This document shows positions 120-5,468 of a DNA stretch of 5,537 nt, in pieces. This stretch comes from Candidatus Sumerlaeota bacterium (GTDB lineage: Bacteria; CG03; SLGR01). Location: the NCBI GenBank assembly GCA_007136585.1, contig SLGR01000108.1, positions 1 to 5,537 of the forward strand, in the 5' to 3' direction. A program made the translations under genes and the position numbers. The notes below the pieces were generated by a model. It ran no database searches. It was not told where the DNA came from and worked only from the letters and a program-made list of their open reading frames with translations. Each line of letters starts with the position of its first letter. Position 1 is the first letter of the stretch.

Positions 120-1601
120 ATGAGGGCGCTAATAAGCGTATACGATAAGCGCGGAGTCAGAGAGTTCGCGAGGGTTCTTGAAAATAACGGTTGGGAGATA
201 GTTTCTACCGGAGGGACTTATACGGTATTAAAGGAGGCGGGGCTTAATCCGCTGCTTTTAAGTGAGGTTATCTCCTCCCCTGAGATTCTTGGGGGAAGGG
301 TAAAGACGCTTCACCCTTCGGTATTTGCGGCGGTACTTGCCCGTAAGGATCAGGTGGATGAAATTGAACGCCTTAATATTAAAAGGTTTGACCTTATATG
401 CTGCAATCTATATCCTTTTGAGGAAACCGTCAGGAAAGACTCTATCGAGGATATCATACTTGAGAATATAGATATAGGAGGTGTTTCCCTGATAAGGGCT
501 GCGGCCAAGAACTACAGGAACGTCATTACCTTAACCTCTCCTGATGATTACGCTGAAGCGGCCCTGAAGATAGAGAGAGACGATATTGATGAAGAGTACA
601 GGCGGGCGCTGGCCCTTAAGGGTTTCCGTATAACCGCCTCTTATGATGATGCCGTAGCATCTTTTTTCTCTGAAACCTCTCTTCCGGAAGATAAAATTAT
701 TTTAGAGCTTTCAGGACGCAAGGATCTCAGGTACGGTGAGAACCCTCACCAGGAAGCGGCTCTTTTCGGTAACCCGCCCTACAGAAAAATTGCCGGAGAG
801 AAAGAACTGAGTTTCAATAACTACCAGGATCTTGACGCGGCGGTAAGGCTTGCGGCTTCTTTTGAAAAACCCGCCGCGGCTGTTATAAAACACGCCGTGC
901 CCTGCGGCGCGGCTATGGCCGGGACCGCCGAGAAGGCTTTTCTTCTCGCCCGCGCAGCTGATCCCCTGAGCGCTTTCGGGGGAATAATAGGGGTCAACAG
1001 GAGAGTCACCGCCGAGCTGGCCCGGGAGGCGGTAAAGAGTTTCTTTGAAGTGATAGCCGCCCCGGATTTTTCGGATGAAGCCCTGGAGATTCTCTCGGTA
1101 AAACCCTCGGTCAGGGTTGTGAGTTTCGGAGATCTTCCGCGCGCAGAGGTTCTGAGGCAGATAAGCGGGGGGATGCTGCAGCAGAGCCCCGACAGTTTTG
1201 AGGGTGAGAAATTTGATACGGTAACGGAAAAGCACCCGGACCCGTCCGAGATTTCGGATCTCCGGACGGCCTGGAAGGTTGCGGCTTTCCTGAAGTCCAA
1301 CGCCGTTGCGATAGTAAAAGACGGGCAGACGCTCGGCCTGGGAAGCGGCCAGACCGCCAGGGTGGATGCGGTAAAAATAGCCGCCGGGGCTCTGCGGGAT
1401 GAAGAGAGAAACTTTAAAGGGGCTGTAATGGCCTCAGACGGGTTCTTCCCTTTTCCCGACGCTGTTGAAGCGGCCGCGGCGGCGGGTATAACGGCCATCG
1501 TTCAGCCCGGCGGGTCAAAAAATGACAGCGCTGTCATAGAGGCTGCCGAAAGGCTCGGGATAAGTATGGTTTTTACGGGCAGGAGACATTTCCTGCATTA
1601 A
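120..1601 (+). CDS. purH: Bifunctional AICAR transformylase / IMP cyclohydrolase PurH
   Basis: This enzyme carries out the last two steps of de novo purine synthesis in the cytoplasm: formylation of AICAR with 10-formyl-tetrahydrofolate, then ring closure of FAICAR to IMP. The N-terminal MGS-like cyclohydrolase domain (about residues 1-145) shows ISVYDK, STGGT (29-33), GRVKTLHP (59-66) and NLYPF (96-100). It also has ENIDIGG (115-121) and RAAAKN (126-131). K62, Y98, D118 and K130 fall where the human cyclohydrolase residues K66, Y104, D125 and K137 would align. The transformylase domain shows LRYGENPHQ (203-211), the Lys-His pair K257-H258, DPLSAFGG (281-288), KSNA (392-395), ASDGFFPF (438-445), QPGGS and the C-terminal FTGRRHF. 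At 493 residues it is complete but slightly shorter than the usual 510-530. The ATG at 120 gives the canonical N-terminus; its ribosome site is modest (AAAGG at 106-110 or AGG at 112-114). Local oddities: the usual bacterial KHxNPCG reads KHAVPCG, and the common HGG after LHPxx reads FAA. Confidence 0.97.
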   Translation: MRALISVYDKRGVREFARVLENNGWEIVSTGGTYTVLKEAGLNPLLLSEVISSPEILGGRVKTLHPSVFAAVLARKDQVDEIERLNIKRFDLICCNLYPFEETVRKDSIEDIILENIDIGGVSLIRAAAKNYRNVITLTSPDDYAEAALKIERDDIDEEYRRALALKGFRITASYDDAVASFFSETSLPEDKIILELSGRKDLRYGENPHQEAALFGNPPYRKIAGEKELSFNNYQDLDAAVRLAASFEKPAAAVIKHAVPCGAAMAGTAEKAFLLARAADPLSAFGGIIGVNRRVTAELAREAVKSFFEVIAAPDFSDEALEILSVKPSVRVVSFGDLPRAEVLRQISGGMLQQSPDSFEGEKFDTVTEKHPDPSEISDLRTAWKVAAFLKSNAVAIVKDGQTLGLGSGQTARVDAVKIAAGALRDEERNFKGAVMASDGFFPFPDAVEAAAAAGITAIVQPGGSKNDSAVIEAAERLGISMVFTGRRHFLH

Positions 1602-1605
1602 CTCA

Positions 1606-1617
1606 AGAGGAGAGGAG
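1606..1617 (+). promoter_or_regulatory. Strong ribosome binding site of the aminotransferase gene
   Basis: The purine tract AGAGGAGAGGAG fills half of the 23-nt gap after the purH stop. Its last AGGAG (1613-1617) is 7 nt before ATG 1625, which is ideal spacing, and fixes that start. The gap has no room for an ordinary promoter, supporting co-transcription with purH. Confidence 0.8.
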
Positions 1618-1624
1618 TTTATTT

Positions 1625-2761
1625 ATGTTAAAGAGAAGGCTTTTTACACCGGGTCCTACAGAGGTTCCGCCGGAGACTCTGGCTGCTGGCGCAAGACCTA
1701 TCCTTCATCACAGGAAAAAAGAGTTCGGAGAGATATATACGGAGACGGTTAATAACCTGAAGAAGGTCTTTGTTTCGGAAGGGGAAGTCTTTGTTTTCGC
1801 ATCTTCCGGAACGGGAGCGATGGAGGCTGCCGTTACTAACTTTACGAGCCCGGGAGATAAGGTTCTTGTCATCGAGTCGGGTAAGTTCGGAGAGCGGTGG
1901 AAACAGCTCTGCGGCGTTTTTGAGACCGATGTGAATCTTCTTGAGTGCCGGTGGGGAAGTTCTGCTGATCCGGCAGAGGTTGAAAAAATACTTAAAGAGA
2001 ACCCGGGTATAAAAGCTGTTTTTTCGACACTGGTTGAGACCTCTACAGGGGCGCTGCATCCGATAGAGGAACTTGCTTCTGTATCTTCCTCCGCAGGCGC
2101 TTTACTTATAGTTGACGCGGTAAGCGGGTTGGGGTGCGACCGTATCCTTACGGATGAGTGGGGGGTGGATGTCGTTGTCTCCGGTTCCCAGAAGGCCCTT
2201 ATGACACCCCCGGGGCTGGGTTTTATATGCGTCAACAGCCGCGCAGCTGAGGTATACAGGGAAAACAACAGGAAAAACTATTACTGGGATCTGAGGAAAG
2301 CCTCAAAATCCCTTGAGAAGTTCCAGACCCCCTACACGCCTTCGGTTAATCTCATAGCAGGGCTTTTAGCCTCTCTTGAATCAATAAACTCCGAGGGTAT
2401 GGAAAACGTCTGGGCCCGCCACAGGAACCTTGCCGCGGGGACAAGGGCGGGGATAGAGGCGATGGGGCTTGAGATATTCCCCGAGAACCCCGCCTGCGGT
2501 CTTACGGCCGTAAAGATTCCCACTCCGGAAAAGATCGGCTCCGGGTTCGTAAAACACTGCCAGGACCGTTACGGGATAGTGTTTGCGGGAGGACAGGCGG
2601 ATCTGAAGGGTAAGATATTCAGAATCGCGCATATGGGGTATTATGACGAGCTTGATGTTATAAAAGCCCTGGCCGCCGTAGAGGCCGGTCTTCGGGACCT
2701 TGGTGAGAGGGATGTTCTGGGCCGGGGAGTTAAGGCGGCCCTGGAGGTTTTTACTACCTGA
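1625..2761 (+). CDS. Class V PLP aminotransferase, alanine-glyoxylate / serine-pyruvate type
   Basis: This is a 378-residue fold-type I PLP enzyme of the class V family that includes alanine-glyoxylate, serine-pyruvate and serine-glyoxylate aminotransferases. It would move an amino group from alanine or serine to a 2-oxo acid in the cytoplasm. Diagnostic pieces in order are FTPGPTEVPPETL (7-19), typical of the family N-terminus, and HHRKKEF (28-34). The PLP-phosphate loop SSGTGAME lies at 60-67. D164 in VDAVSG should contact the pyridine nitrogen. K190 in SGSQKAL is the Schiff-base lysine, and R333 in IFRIAHMG should bind the substrate carboxylate. The GRGVKAALEV tail is the usual family C-terminus, so the gene is intact. 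ATG 1625 has an excellent ribosome site and gives the expected N-terminus. Some relatives are paired with phosphoglycerate dehydrogenase (serA) and act in serine synthesis; no serA is visible here, so the substrate stays open. It follows purH by 23 nt and precedes the GH65 gene by 1 nt. Confidence 0.93.
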   Translation: MLKRRLFTPGPTEVPPETLAAGARPILHHRKKEFGEIYTETVNNLKKVFVSEGEVFVFASSGTGAMEAAVTNFTSPGDKVLVIESGKFGERWKQLCGVFETDVNLLECRWGSSADPAEVEKILKENPGIKAVFSTLVETSTGALHPIEELASVSSSAGALLIVDAVSGLGCDRILTDEWGVDVVVSGSQKALMTPPGLGFICVNSRAAEVYRENNRKNYYWDLRKASKSLEKFQTPYTPSVNLIAGLLASLESINSEGMENVWARHRNLAAGTRAGIEAMGLEIFPENPACGLTAVKIPTPEKIGSGFVKHCQDRYGIVFAGGQADLKGKIFRIAHMGYYDELDVIKALAAVEAGLRDLGERDVLGRGVKAALEVFTT

Positions 2762-2765
2762 AGTG
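2743..2765 (+). promoter_or_regulatory. GTG start of the GH65 gene, coupled to the aminotransferase stop
   Basis: The start chosen is GTG 2763-2765, one base after TGA 2759-2761. It places ANHYLKKY at the N-terminus, close to where GH65 proteins usually begin. The best Shine-Dalgarno, GGAGG at 2743-2747, is 15 nt upstream, longer than ideal, so initiation probably depends on ribosomes finishing the aminotransferase. In-frame TTG 2700 and ATG 2712 would add about 20 arginine- and tryptophan-containing residues that only read over the aminotransferase 3' end, and neither has a well-spaced ribosome site. Confidence 0.65.
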
Positions 2766-5468
2766 GCAAACCATTACTTAAAAAAATACTGTTCCGGTTC
2801 TCCCGGGTTCAGGGTCTCCGAGGAGGGATTCAAAGAGGAAACTCAGCCTTTTTACGAGACGCTCCTTTCCCTTGGAAACGGGTATATAGGATCCAGGGCG
2901 GTATACGAGGAAAACCCCTCCGGAAGCTCTCCCGGAACCTATATCGCGGGTATCTTTGACAGATCCGCCGCCCAGGTTGAAGAGCTCGTAAACCTACCCA
3001 ACCCTTTAAGCCTTATGATAGCGGCCGAGGGTGAGAAGTTTGATATAGTGACCATGCAGGTGCTCTCAAACAGGCGTGTCCTCGATATGAAGAACGGGGT
3101 CCTTGTCAGGAAGACCCTTTTCCGCGACGCAAGGCGCCGGAAGTACTTATACCAGTCAGCGAGATTTTTCAGTATGGATAATCCTCATATAGGGGCCATA
3201 AAGGTCTCGCTTAAGCTTATTAAGGGGGCTGCCCGGCTTACAATGGTAGACGGTATTGACGATTCGGTATTTAACAGCGGCGGTCTGATGCTTGCCAAAC
3301 GCCGCCACTTTGATACCGCCTCAGCCGAGAAGAAGGGGTATATGAACTACACTGCTTTTTCCACCCACTCCAGCCGCCATCTTATAGCGTATGCCGATTA
3401 TATGAGAGTCAGCCTGGGAGGGAGGAACCGCCGGCTGCGGGACCGGATCCACAACTTTGAGCTTAAGACCGGACATGAGATAACCTTCACAAAGCTTTTT
3501 TCGGTCTGCACAGGGGGTTTGGATAACGCGGATTCCCTCAAAAAGAAGGCTCTCTCCACTCTAAGATCCGCGGTCAACAGGGGGTTTGACGAACTCTTCA
3601 GGCGCCACAGAGACTCGCTGGCGGAGAGGTGGGATAAGAGCGATGTCGCGGTAAAAGGGGACAGGGCGTGCCAGCTGGCTATCAGGTTTAACATATACCA
3701 CCTTCTTATATCCGCCCGGCAGGAATACGCGCATTTTTCCGTAGGCGCAAAAACGCTAAGCGGCCCCGGTTACAGGGGACATATATTCTGGGATACGGAG
3801 ATATATATACTACCGTTTTTTATAAGGACCGACCCGGAGGTGGCGCGGGCCATGCTATTATTCAGGCACGATACGCTTCCTGCCGCACGGGAACTGGCAA
3901 AAGAAAACGGGTACCGCGGGGCTATGTACCCCTGGGAGGCCTCTGCCGACGGAACCGAACAGACCCCCAGGTACGCCAAGGAGCTTGACGGCTCAATCGG
4001 CGAGGTCCGGACTATGGATTTTGAACATCATATCACAGCCGATGTTGCTTACGGGGTATATGATTATGTCAGGGTCACGGGAGATACCGGGTTCCTGATG
4101 AAATACGGGGCCGAGATAGTGCTTGAGACCGCAAGGTTCTGGGCAGACCGGGTTGAGTATGACAGTAAAGGCGGCAGATACCATATCAGGGGTGTAATAG
4201 GTCCGGATGAGTTCCACGTTAACGTTGATGATAACGCCTATACAAACTGCCTGGCCGCCTGGAACCTCTCCTACGCCGCTGAAATTTACAGGAAATACTC
4301 CTCAAGGGCGGATTTCGGAAAACTCTCGGATTCCCTGGGGCTAAGCGCAGCGGAAGTTGAAGAGTGGGAGAAGATTTCTGAGGGTATCGCTATCCCCGAG
4401 TCCCGAAAGTACGGGATAATCGCGCAGTTTGACGGTTATATGCGTCTCAGGGACGTGGAGCTTGCCGGGTACGACCGGTATTTTATGCCCCTTGCTCCGA
4501 AAAGATACGAACACTCAGGGGAGCTTCAGAAGACCCGTTTCATCAAGCAGGCCGACGTTCTCCTTGTTTTTCATCTTCTTCCTGAACTCTTCTCCCGGGA
4601 AACCCTTGAAAAGAACTATGAGTACTACCTTCCGAGAACGCTTCACAAGTCCTCGCTCTCGTATTGCCTGCATTCCGTCGTAGCTTCAGAGCTCGGAGAC
4701 AGCTTCAGGGCCTTTGCCTTTTTCTGGGCCGGGGCCAACATAGACCTGCTTGATATAGCCGGCAACACCTGTGACGGGATACACGCAGCCAACCTGGGGG
4801 GGGTCTGGCAGGCGGCCGTGACGGGTTTCGGGGGGCTGCGTATCGGTGAGGAAGGGGTAAGTATCCGTCCCCGGCTTCCGGGAAATTTCCGTGAGGTCAG
4901 GTACGGTTTTATCTACAGGGGAAGAAGTTTTAAGGTTTCTCAGACAAACCGGAAGGTCCGGATAGGTTTTATGCCCGGGAAAGGCAGGGACAGGAAAATC
5001 CCGGTTGAGGTATTCGGCAGGAGACTCGTCCTTGAACCCGGCAGGTTCAGAACCGTCCTCAACCCGGAACATAAAGGAGGCTCCCGTATGCTTGTAAAGG
5101 ATATCATAAAAAAGGAAAACAGCCTTACGGTAACAGGGAACACACCGGCGGGAGATGTGGGGGAAATGCTTATAAACAGAAAAATATCCAGCGTGCCGGT
5201 TGTTGATTCAGGGAAAAAACTTCTTGGTATAATTTCAGAAAAGAATATAATAAAATCAGCTGTAGATGAGAACTTTCGCCGCCTGAAGGCATCAGATATA
5301 ATGGAAAAAAAAGTTGTCTGCCTGAACTGGAACGATTCTCTGGAGACAGCTACAAAACTTTTTACCAGGCACCCCTACAGGCGTCTTCCTGTTATAAAGC
5401 AGGGCAGGGTTGCGGGGGTTCTTACCCGCCGGGATATAATAGCGGACTTTCTGGGAGGTTACTACTGA
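2763..5468 (+). CDS. GH65 disaccharide phosphorylase with C-terminal CBS-domain pair
   Basis: The first ~765 residues are a glycoside hydrolase family 65 enzyme (maltose/kojibiose/trehalose-type phosphorylases). These split an alpha-glucoside with phosphate, giving beta-glucose 1-phosphate. The N-terminal beta-sandwich has LLSLGNGYIGSR (34-45) and ELVNLPN (74-80). The (alpha/alpha)6 catalytic barrel has HIFWDTEIYILPFF (340-353), GYRGAMYPWEASADGTE (383-399) and VIGPDEFHVNVDDNAYTN (478-495). E483 is the predicted general acid. Expected phosphate ligands are K595 (KQAD), S630-S631 (HKSSLS) and H674 (DGIHAA). The all-beta C-terminal domain ends near VEVFGRRLVLEPG (748-760). After a short linker, two CBS domains follow (about 776-835 and 842-898), with PVVD...GIISEKNII and LPVI...GVLTRRDII; such pairs usually bind adenine nucleotides. 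There is no signal peptide or membrane segment, so it is cytoplasmic. Exact sugar specificity cannot be read from sequence. The protein (901 residues) exceeds normal GH65 length (about 750-800) by the CBS part, which starts at an internal ribosome site. GH65 identity is near certain; the continuous fusion is what the DNA reads. Confidence 0.93.
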   Translation: MANHYLKKYCSGSPGFRVSEEGFKEETQPFYETLLSLGNGYIGSRAVYEENPSGSSPGTYIAGIFDRSAAQVEELVNLPNPLSLMIAAEGEKFDIVTMQVLSNRRVLDMKNGVLVRKTLFRDARRRKYLYQSARFFSMDNPHIGAIKVSLKLIKGAARLTMVDGIDDSVFNSGGLMLAKRRHFDTASAEKKGYMNYTAFSTHSSRHLIAYADYMRVSLGGRNRRLRDRIHNFELKTGHEITFTKLFSVCTGGLDNADSLKKKALSTLRSAVNRGFDELFRRHRDSLAERWDKSDVAVKGDRACQLAIRFNIYHLLISARQEYAHFSVGAKTLSGPGYRGHIFWDTEIYILPFFIRTDPEVARAMLLFRHDTLPAARELAKENGYRGAMYPWEASADGTEQTPRYAKELDGSIGEVRTMDFEHHITADVAYGVYDYVRVTGDTGFLMKYGAEIVLETARFWADRVEYDSKGGRYHIRGVIGPDEFHVNVDDNAYTNCLAAWNLSYAAEIYRKYSSRADFGKLSDSLGLSAAEVEEWEKISEGIAIPESRKYGIIAQFDGYMRLRDVELAGYDRYFMPLAPKRYEHSGELQKTRFIKQADVLLVFHLLPELFSRETLEKNYEYYLPRTLHKSSLSYCLHSVVASELGDSFRAFAFFWAGANIDLLDIAGNTCDGIHAANLGGVWQAAVTGFGGLRIGEEGVSIRPRLPGNFREVRYGFIYRGRSFKVSQTNRKVRIGFMPGKGRDRKIPVEVFGRRLVLEPGRFRTVLNPEHKGGSRMLVKDIIKKENSLTVTGNTPAGDVGEMLINRKISSVPVVDSGKKLLGIISEKNIIKSAVDENFRRLKASDIMEKKVVCLNWNDSLETATKLFTRHPYRRLPVIKQGRVAGVLTRRDIIADFLGGYY
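5072..5090 (+). promoter_or_regulatory. Internal Shine-Dalgarno and ATG at the GH65/CBS boundary
   Basis: AAAGGAGG (5073-5080) is nearly a full match to the anti-Shine-Dalgarno of 16S rRNA. It is followed by a 7-nt spacer and ATG 5088, in frame with the upstream GH65. It is better than the ribosome site at the GH65 gene's own start and sits exactly where the CBS part begins (MLVKDI). A TAA at 5072-5074 overlaps it in another frame, as at many tightly packed gene junctions. Confidence 0.7.
5088..5468 (+). other. CBS-domain pair, possibly also made as a free 126-residue protein
   Basis: Starting at the internal ATG this segment would encode 126 residues, the usual size of a stand-alone two-CBS (Bateman module) protein. 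MLVKDIIKK at the front and ASDIMEKKVV in the middle are the classic lead-ins of CBS repeats 1 and 2. Each repeat ends in a strand-helix of the GIISEKNII / GVLTRRDII type. Its first half looks richer in A (runs such as ATCATAAAAAAGGAAAA) than the preceding GH65 sequence, consistent with a separate origin. It is either the regulatory tail of the phosphorylase, a separately translated protein, or both. The ligand is unknown; AMP, ATP or SAM are typical for the family. Confidence 0.6.

Follow-up and report, generated by a model that had tools for sequence, protein, structure and literature searches.

A sugar phosphorylase gene that may hold a second gene for its own CBS sensor

The gene described here encodes a GH65 sugar phosphorylase that runs in frame into a pair of CBS domains, and it appears to encode the CBS pair a second time, as a free protein translated from a start site of its own inside the larger frame. 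That the fusion is real is near certain; that a free CBS product is made I consider likely, judging from signals conserved in the sequence; and the reading as a whole, a gene within a gene whose free CBS pair joins the fused pair to tune the phosphorylase, strikes me as reasonably probable. Most known cases of a regulatory subunit made by internal translation come from phage lysins, CRISPR and secretion systems. If this reading is true, a metabolic enzyme that both carries and releases a CBS sensor would bring the gene-within-a-gene arrangement into the regulation of central sugar metabolism, and further enzymes to which CBS, receiver or ACT domains are attached could be screened for the same internal signal. 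A literature search found no description of a GH65 protein with CBS domains and none of an allosteric GH65 phosphorylase.

The window, by which I mean the whole stretch of DNA that was analysed, is an entire contig of 5,537 bases from a MAG of 1.88 Mb that is 88% complete, and the window features given below all lie on the forward (+) strand. Its third gene occupies positions 2763-5468 and encodes 901 amino acids without interruption, from a GTG at 2763, in register with the ATG starts of its relatives in the alignment, to a TGA at 5466-5468. The product is a complete GH65 with its three domains in the order N-terminal, catalytic and C-terminal, each with a Pfam match above the cut-off, followed by two CBS repeats. 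The N-terminal beta-sandwich domain (residues 20-250, positions 2820-3512) matches PF03636 Glyco_hydro_65N (E 4.8e-46) and is also seen in the AlphaFold model; the catalytic barrel (residues 308-683, positions 3684-4811) is identified by PF03632 Glyco_hydro_65m (E 4.5e-117), the genome search and invariant residues; and the C-terminal beta domain (residues 692-757, positions 4836-5033) matches PF03633 Glyco_hydro_65C (E 6.9e-7). A variable linker (residues 758-775, positions 5034-5087), stop-free in all seven genomes that carry the fusion, leads into two CBS stretches recognized by Pfam, the better of them at residues 843-894 (E 6.5e-23), and AlphaFold models the full-length protein with a pLDDT of 89.9 and a pTM of 0.91. 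The original prediction of an intact GH65 in frame with two CBS repeats was right in both coordinates and architecture, but it took the gene to have a single product and overlooked an internal ribosome-binding site (RBS) and ATG that are conserved in seven of seven genes.

This internal site consists of a Shine-Dalgarno sequence, AAGGAGG (5074-5080), lying 7 nt before an in-frame ATG (5088-5090) that opens the predicted gene within the gene (5088-5465), which specifies the free CBS pair of 126 amino acids and shares the TGA of the larger frame. Every one of the seven fusion genes has GGAGG at the same place, 7-11 nt before an in-frame ATG that stands 126-129 codons upstream of the stop; what would be expected of a gene within a gene, namely that homologues share an internal start with a Shine-Dalgarno sequence where two domains meet, is therefore present throughout. 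Column 781 of the 910 in the alignment is the sole one with GGAGG at start-like spacing in all seven genes, while 847 columns have it in none and no column away from the border site has it in more than three, and one relative (G005) contains a single GGAGG in its whole 2,706-nt gene, at the border site. The GGAGG encodes unrelated residues (KGG, REE, REV, DGG, EED, KED), falls in two codon phases and sits in a linker of low similarity; the differing residues and the two phases therefore point to selection on the nucleotides and not on the protein. The joint chance of finding it in all seven, given each gene's own background, is 1.4e-14 per column (2e-12 without G006), and shuffling nothing but synonymous codons under an unchanged protein sequence gives 1.5e-6 (1.5e-5 without G006), all of these values being approximate since they treat the genes as independent when G004 and G006 are 84% identical and G002 and G005 69%. 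Taken gene by gene, the synonymous shuffles give 0.04-0.35, which is not significant and makes single-gene shuffling too weak to serve as sole proof of an internal start; the signal is its recurrence across genes. The 16S rRNA of one relative (G001) has the 3' end GGATCACCTCCTTTCT, with the matching CACCTCC, and in seven of seven cases the internal site is predicted to pair more strongly with the anti-Shine-Dalgarno than the main start of the gene does (-10.3 to -11.7 versus +2.0 to -10.5 kcal/mol). The first ten codons after the internal ATG are A-rich, and mRNA structure around this ATG is below the gene mean in all seven, a weak trend that is not extreme. The start may nevertheless be a weak one, since elongating ribosomes cross it.

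Across the genes, the predicted free product is 126-129 amino acids long and opens in the manner of MxxAKDIM (MLVKDIIKK..., MITAKDIMK... and others), an N-terminus like that of the phylum's stand-alone CBS proteins, whose separate genes carry similar upstream signals; those of related genomes read GGSKMLAKD or GGGKMIAKN, to which KGGSRMLVKD in the window comes close. In length, start and fold it is also similar to the stand-alone CBS-pair proteins MJ0100, AcuB and DarB, although these have genes of their own and the gene of the predicted product is contained in that of an enzyme. When the 126-residue pair is modelled alone (AlphaFold), the pLDDT is 90 and 118 residues of the model match MJ0100 with a Z of 19.2 and 1.6 A. 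The structural matches also include AcuB and CBSX proteins of plants, and several of them were solved with AMP, ADP, ATP or SAM/MTA. Pfam, AlphaFold and the MJ0100 match agree that the two repeats form one pair, a Bateman module. Both repeats of the window protein have the full ribose-phosphate motif of CBS domains, G-h-h-S/T-x-x-D/N (PMC11172384), reading G-I-I-S-E-K-N in CBS1 (residues 822-828, positions 5226-5246) and G-V-L-T-R-R-D in CBS2 (residues 885-891, positions 5415-5435), and among the seven fusions it is complete in CBS1 of five and in CBS2 of six. This distribution, with the motif whole in the window protein but not in every relative, favours at least one adenosyl site per CBS pair. 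It had been proposed beforehand that the pair senses adenine nucleotides or SAM, which is plausible given the motif in both repeats and the matching folds with AMP, ADP, ATP or SAM/MTA bound, and is weakened by the relatives in which the motif is incomplete (two for CBS1, one for CBS2); on balance, I find sensing of an adenosyl ligand moderately probable.

The simplest history is probably that a GH65 gene became joined in frame to a CBS gene lying downstream of it, and the once stand-alone CBS gene would have retained its own RBS within the linker, where selection would have kept it in all known members. Such a gene would yield a 901-aa inverting alpha-glucoside phosphorylase with a C-terminal CBS pair and, by initiation at the internal RBS and ATG precisely where the domains meet, a second protein of about 126 amino acids that is the CBS pair alone. 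CBS pairs normally dimerise, those of two subunits together making a four-domain disc to which adenosine phosphates bind (PMC11172384), and the free pair would dock on the fused pair to complete such a disc, so that the enzyme would have a subunit supplied in excess and phosphorolysis would change when an adenosyl ligand, whether AMP/ADP/ATP, SAM or a dinucleotide, is bound. Completion of the disc on the fused enzyme is suggested by analogy with phage endolysins of the same gene layout (CTP1L, Lys170, LysIME-EF1 and LysP7951), two-product systems in which an in-frame internal start lies between an enzyme and its C-terminal accessory domain, and in which the product of the internal start associates with the full-length enzyme and alters its activity, giving heteromers of full-length protein and free accessory domain in ratios of 2:2, 1:3 or 1:5 (PMC4777826, PMC9430671). 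Endolysins, however, are phage lytic enzymes with cell-wall-binding domains, whereas the fusion is a metabolic enzyme of cytoplasmic type with a sensor domain, and its second product is predicted. With this analogy as the guide, assembly of the free pair with the enzyme comes just under an even chance, and I would be slightly more tentative about a detachable sensor subunit, in which mixed CBS discs would let the ratio of the two starts on a single mRNA, together with adenylate or SAM levels, set the activity of the disaccharide phosphorylase. A C-terminal part separately translated from an internal start is also seen in RpnL/RpnS, Cas11b and SctQ (PMC10327210, PMC11899642, PMC4295842), but these belong to other protein classes, and there is no CBS-bearing carbohydrate enzyme among them. 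Similarly, CBS-PPase and IMPDH have a CBS pair appended to an enzyme (PMC11172384), and the literature search found no internally started free CBS pair described for either.

Could the free pair act elsewhere, in the style of DarB on Rel, with the fusion mainly co-regulating the two products and no mixed disc being formed? Stand-alone CBS pairs can work on other proteins, as in DarB2:Rel2, where a CBS dimer sits between two partner enzymes (PMC9848473), and there are endolysins with two products that form no hetero-multimers (PMC9430671); still, the open frame in all seven genomes suggests a functional fused copy, with a shared domain linking the products, and I would give this explanation a low but not negligible chance. 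It is unlikely that the free pair serves as an inhibitor or buffer, competing for ligand or blocking CBS-mediated pairing of the full-length enzymes, for which the precedent is RpnS, an internally translated C-terminal domain that directly blocks RpnL (PMC10327210); the short form may be in excess given the stronger internal start signal, but the activity of a phosphorylase is not known to be toxic in a way that would call for blocking. I am likewise doubtful that the fusion has one product only, with the CBS pair as a plain C-terminal allosteric domain and the internal GGAGG and ATG as a relic of the former CBS gene or a matter of chance. The conserved fused frame, the structured linker, the confident full-length model and the modest values of the per-gene shuffles are all in keeping with a single product, yet a relic would have decayed among proteins only 51-55% identical, and the GGAGG persists in every gene despite the changes of residue and phase.

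The same full-length fusion (residues 1-901) was found in six further genomes in a protein search of 61 genomes, at 51-55% identity and with no internal stops; together with that of the window, these genomes span four families of one order, and the named records of the relatives are MAGs deposited as 'Elusimicrobia bacterium'. It therefore reflects neither a frameshift nor an assembly error, and the idea that such an artefact joined two separate genes, for which nothing speaks except that the window is the whole of a short MAG contig, was rejected as practically inconceivable because six more genomes, from different assembly projects, hold the same frame. The recurrence in related genomes that the original prediction had wished to see checked is thereby established for six others of the same order, and the two outcomes it had named as fatal, relatives with a separate CBS gene and a base missing at the junction, are both excluded by these stop-free, full-length relatives. 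G007, a genome of this order that is less complete (66%), gave no match in the protein search.

Unfused GH65 relatives end at about 750-785 amino acids, and the nearest of them (38-41% identity), from Omnitrophota, Deltaproteobacteria and other bacterial MAGs, end at about 770-785 and have neither a CBS domain nor an adjoining CBS gene; in G011, from the same phylum as the fusions, the GH65 stops and a glycosyltransferase gene follows. When a CBS model was run on 80 loci and on the loci from a GH65 search of 386 genomes, CBS was found fused to or adjoining GH65 in this order only, with the exception of G130 and G267, where a separate CBS gene adjoins a GH65-receiver fusion. Among the GH65 frames of more than 850 amino acids that were fetched from outside the order, those that have an extra domain read as HAD or receiver fusions and not as CBS fusions. 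Because the fusion is confined to the order and the GH65s of the nearest relatives and of G011 are unfused, it looks like the result of a single event at the base of the order.

As for the enzyme itself, E483, S630, S631 and H674 do not vary across 32 sequences (the seven fusions and 25 unfused GH65s), with E483 as the general acid Glu expected of a GH65 inverting glycoside phosphorylase. Solved GH65 phosphorylases bind phosphate with a Lys, a His and two Ser (PMC8626586), and the whole set is present here, the lysine most likely being K330, which sits in GAKTLSG (with Arg in two relatives) and aligns with GAKGLHG of CsKP, the kojibiose phosphorylase discussed below. K595, to which this role had been given, is also invariant, yet it lies C-terminal to E483, whereas the lysine position in solved GH65s precedes the general acid, as does Met330, its replacement in FjGH65A, relative to Glu472 (PMC8626586); the assignment of the other four residues stands. 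Since the bacterial hydrolase FjGH65A is without the phosphate site (PMC8626586) and the fusion has it, phosphorylase is a sound reading. The best PDB match is the C. saccharolyticus kojibiose phosphorylase, CsKP (533 bits by sequence), and Foldseek gives 3wiq as the best fold match, with a TM of 0.94 over the target and 37% identity. Like CsKP, which is without a CBS pair, all seven fusions have the WET motif (W391, E392, T417; PMC8537180), and the equivalents of E64 and P402 are conserved as well. The motif for kojibiose specificity, EEAPxx at CsKP positions 64/392/394/402/416/585 (PMC8537180), is nevertheless incomplete, the fusions reading E, E, S or T, P, and with Ser/Thr in place of Ala at 394 the enzyme is therefore called kojibiose-phosphorylase-like and is not assigned as a kojibiose phosphorylase. 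It is probably an inverting alpha-glucoside phosphorylase with a kojibiose-like acceptor. Fittingly, a beta-phosphoglucomutase-family gene, the expected consumer of the beta-glucose 1-phosphate that the predicted phosphorolysis would produce, occurs in all seven genomes, and in five of the six relatives it lies right beside the fusion.

Upstream in the window lie purH (120-1601) and a class-V aminotransferase gene (1625-2761) that ends one base before the GH65 start and is a neighbour in G001 too. The order purH, aminotransferase, GH65-CBS, also found in G001 and G003, is kept in three genera (window 120-5468; L035 3364-8664; L036 3360-8715) and makes an AICAR/IMP enzyme the neighbour of a phosphorylase that possibly senses adenylates; the L035 aminotransferase resembles SerC, and those of the window and L036 do not. 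In two genomes (L037 8264-10711; L038 3307-5592) a sucrose-phosphate-synthase-like GT4 gene stands directly 3' of the fusion gene and is either followed by a PfkB-type sugar kinase or fused to one in frame. Unfused GH65s of three lineages (L039 3448-4448; L096 6638-7864; L128) also have a GT4 glycosyltransferase downstream, with a start like HWGFPPIIGGVETHL, and GH65-GT4 is likely a conserved partnership in the unfused relatives.

The GH65-receiver fusions of the unrelated lineage mentioned above (L171, G130:C98, minus strand, plus coordinates 3476-6352 and 2948-3421; L172, G267:C7, 2161-5037 and 1633-2157) combine a trehalose-phosphorylase-like GH65 with a C-terminal domain that reads as a response-regulator receiver, and the separate CBS-pair gene, which has a strong AAAGGAGG site, follows directly; the receiver border likewise shows a purine-rich stretch and an ATG. 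Other long GH65 frames (L148, L156, L157, L165, L168) have N- or C-terminal domains that read as HAD of the beta-phosphoglucomutase type. Lastly, in the window's own genome an entire 11-kb contig (L140, G000:C106, 3-11051, minus strand) is one frame of at least 3,683 amino acids, open at both ends and hence part of a giant protein; it contains a PIG-L domain, a GH65 that is complete (1390-2196, with N, m and C) and a 'Lysine_decarbox' domain of LOG-like type.
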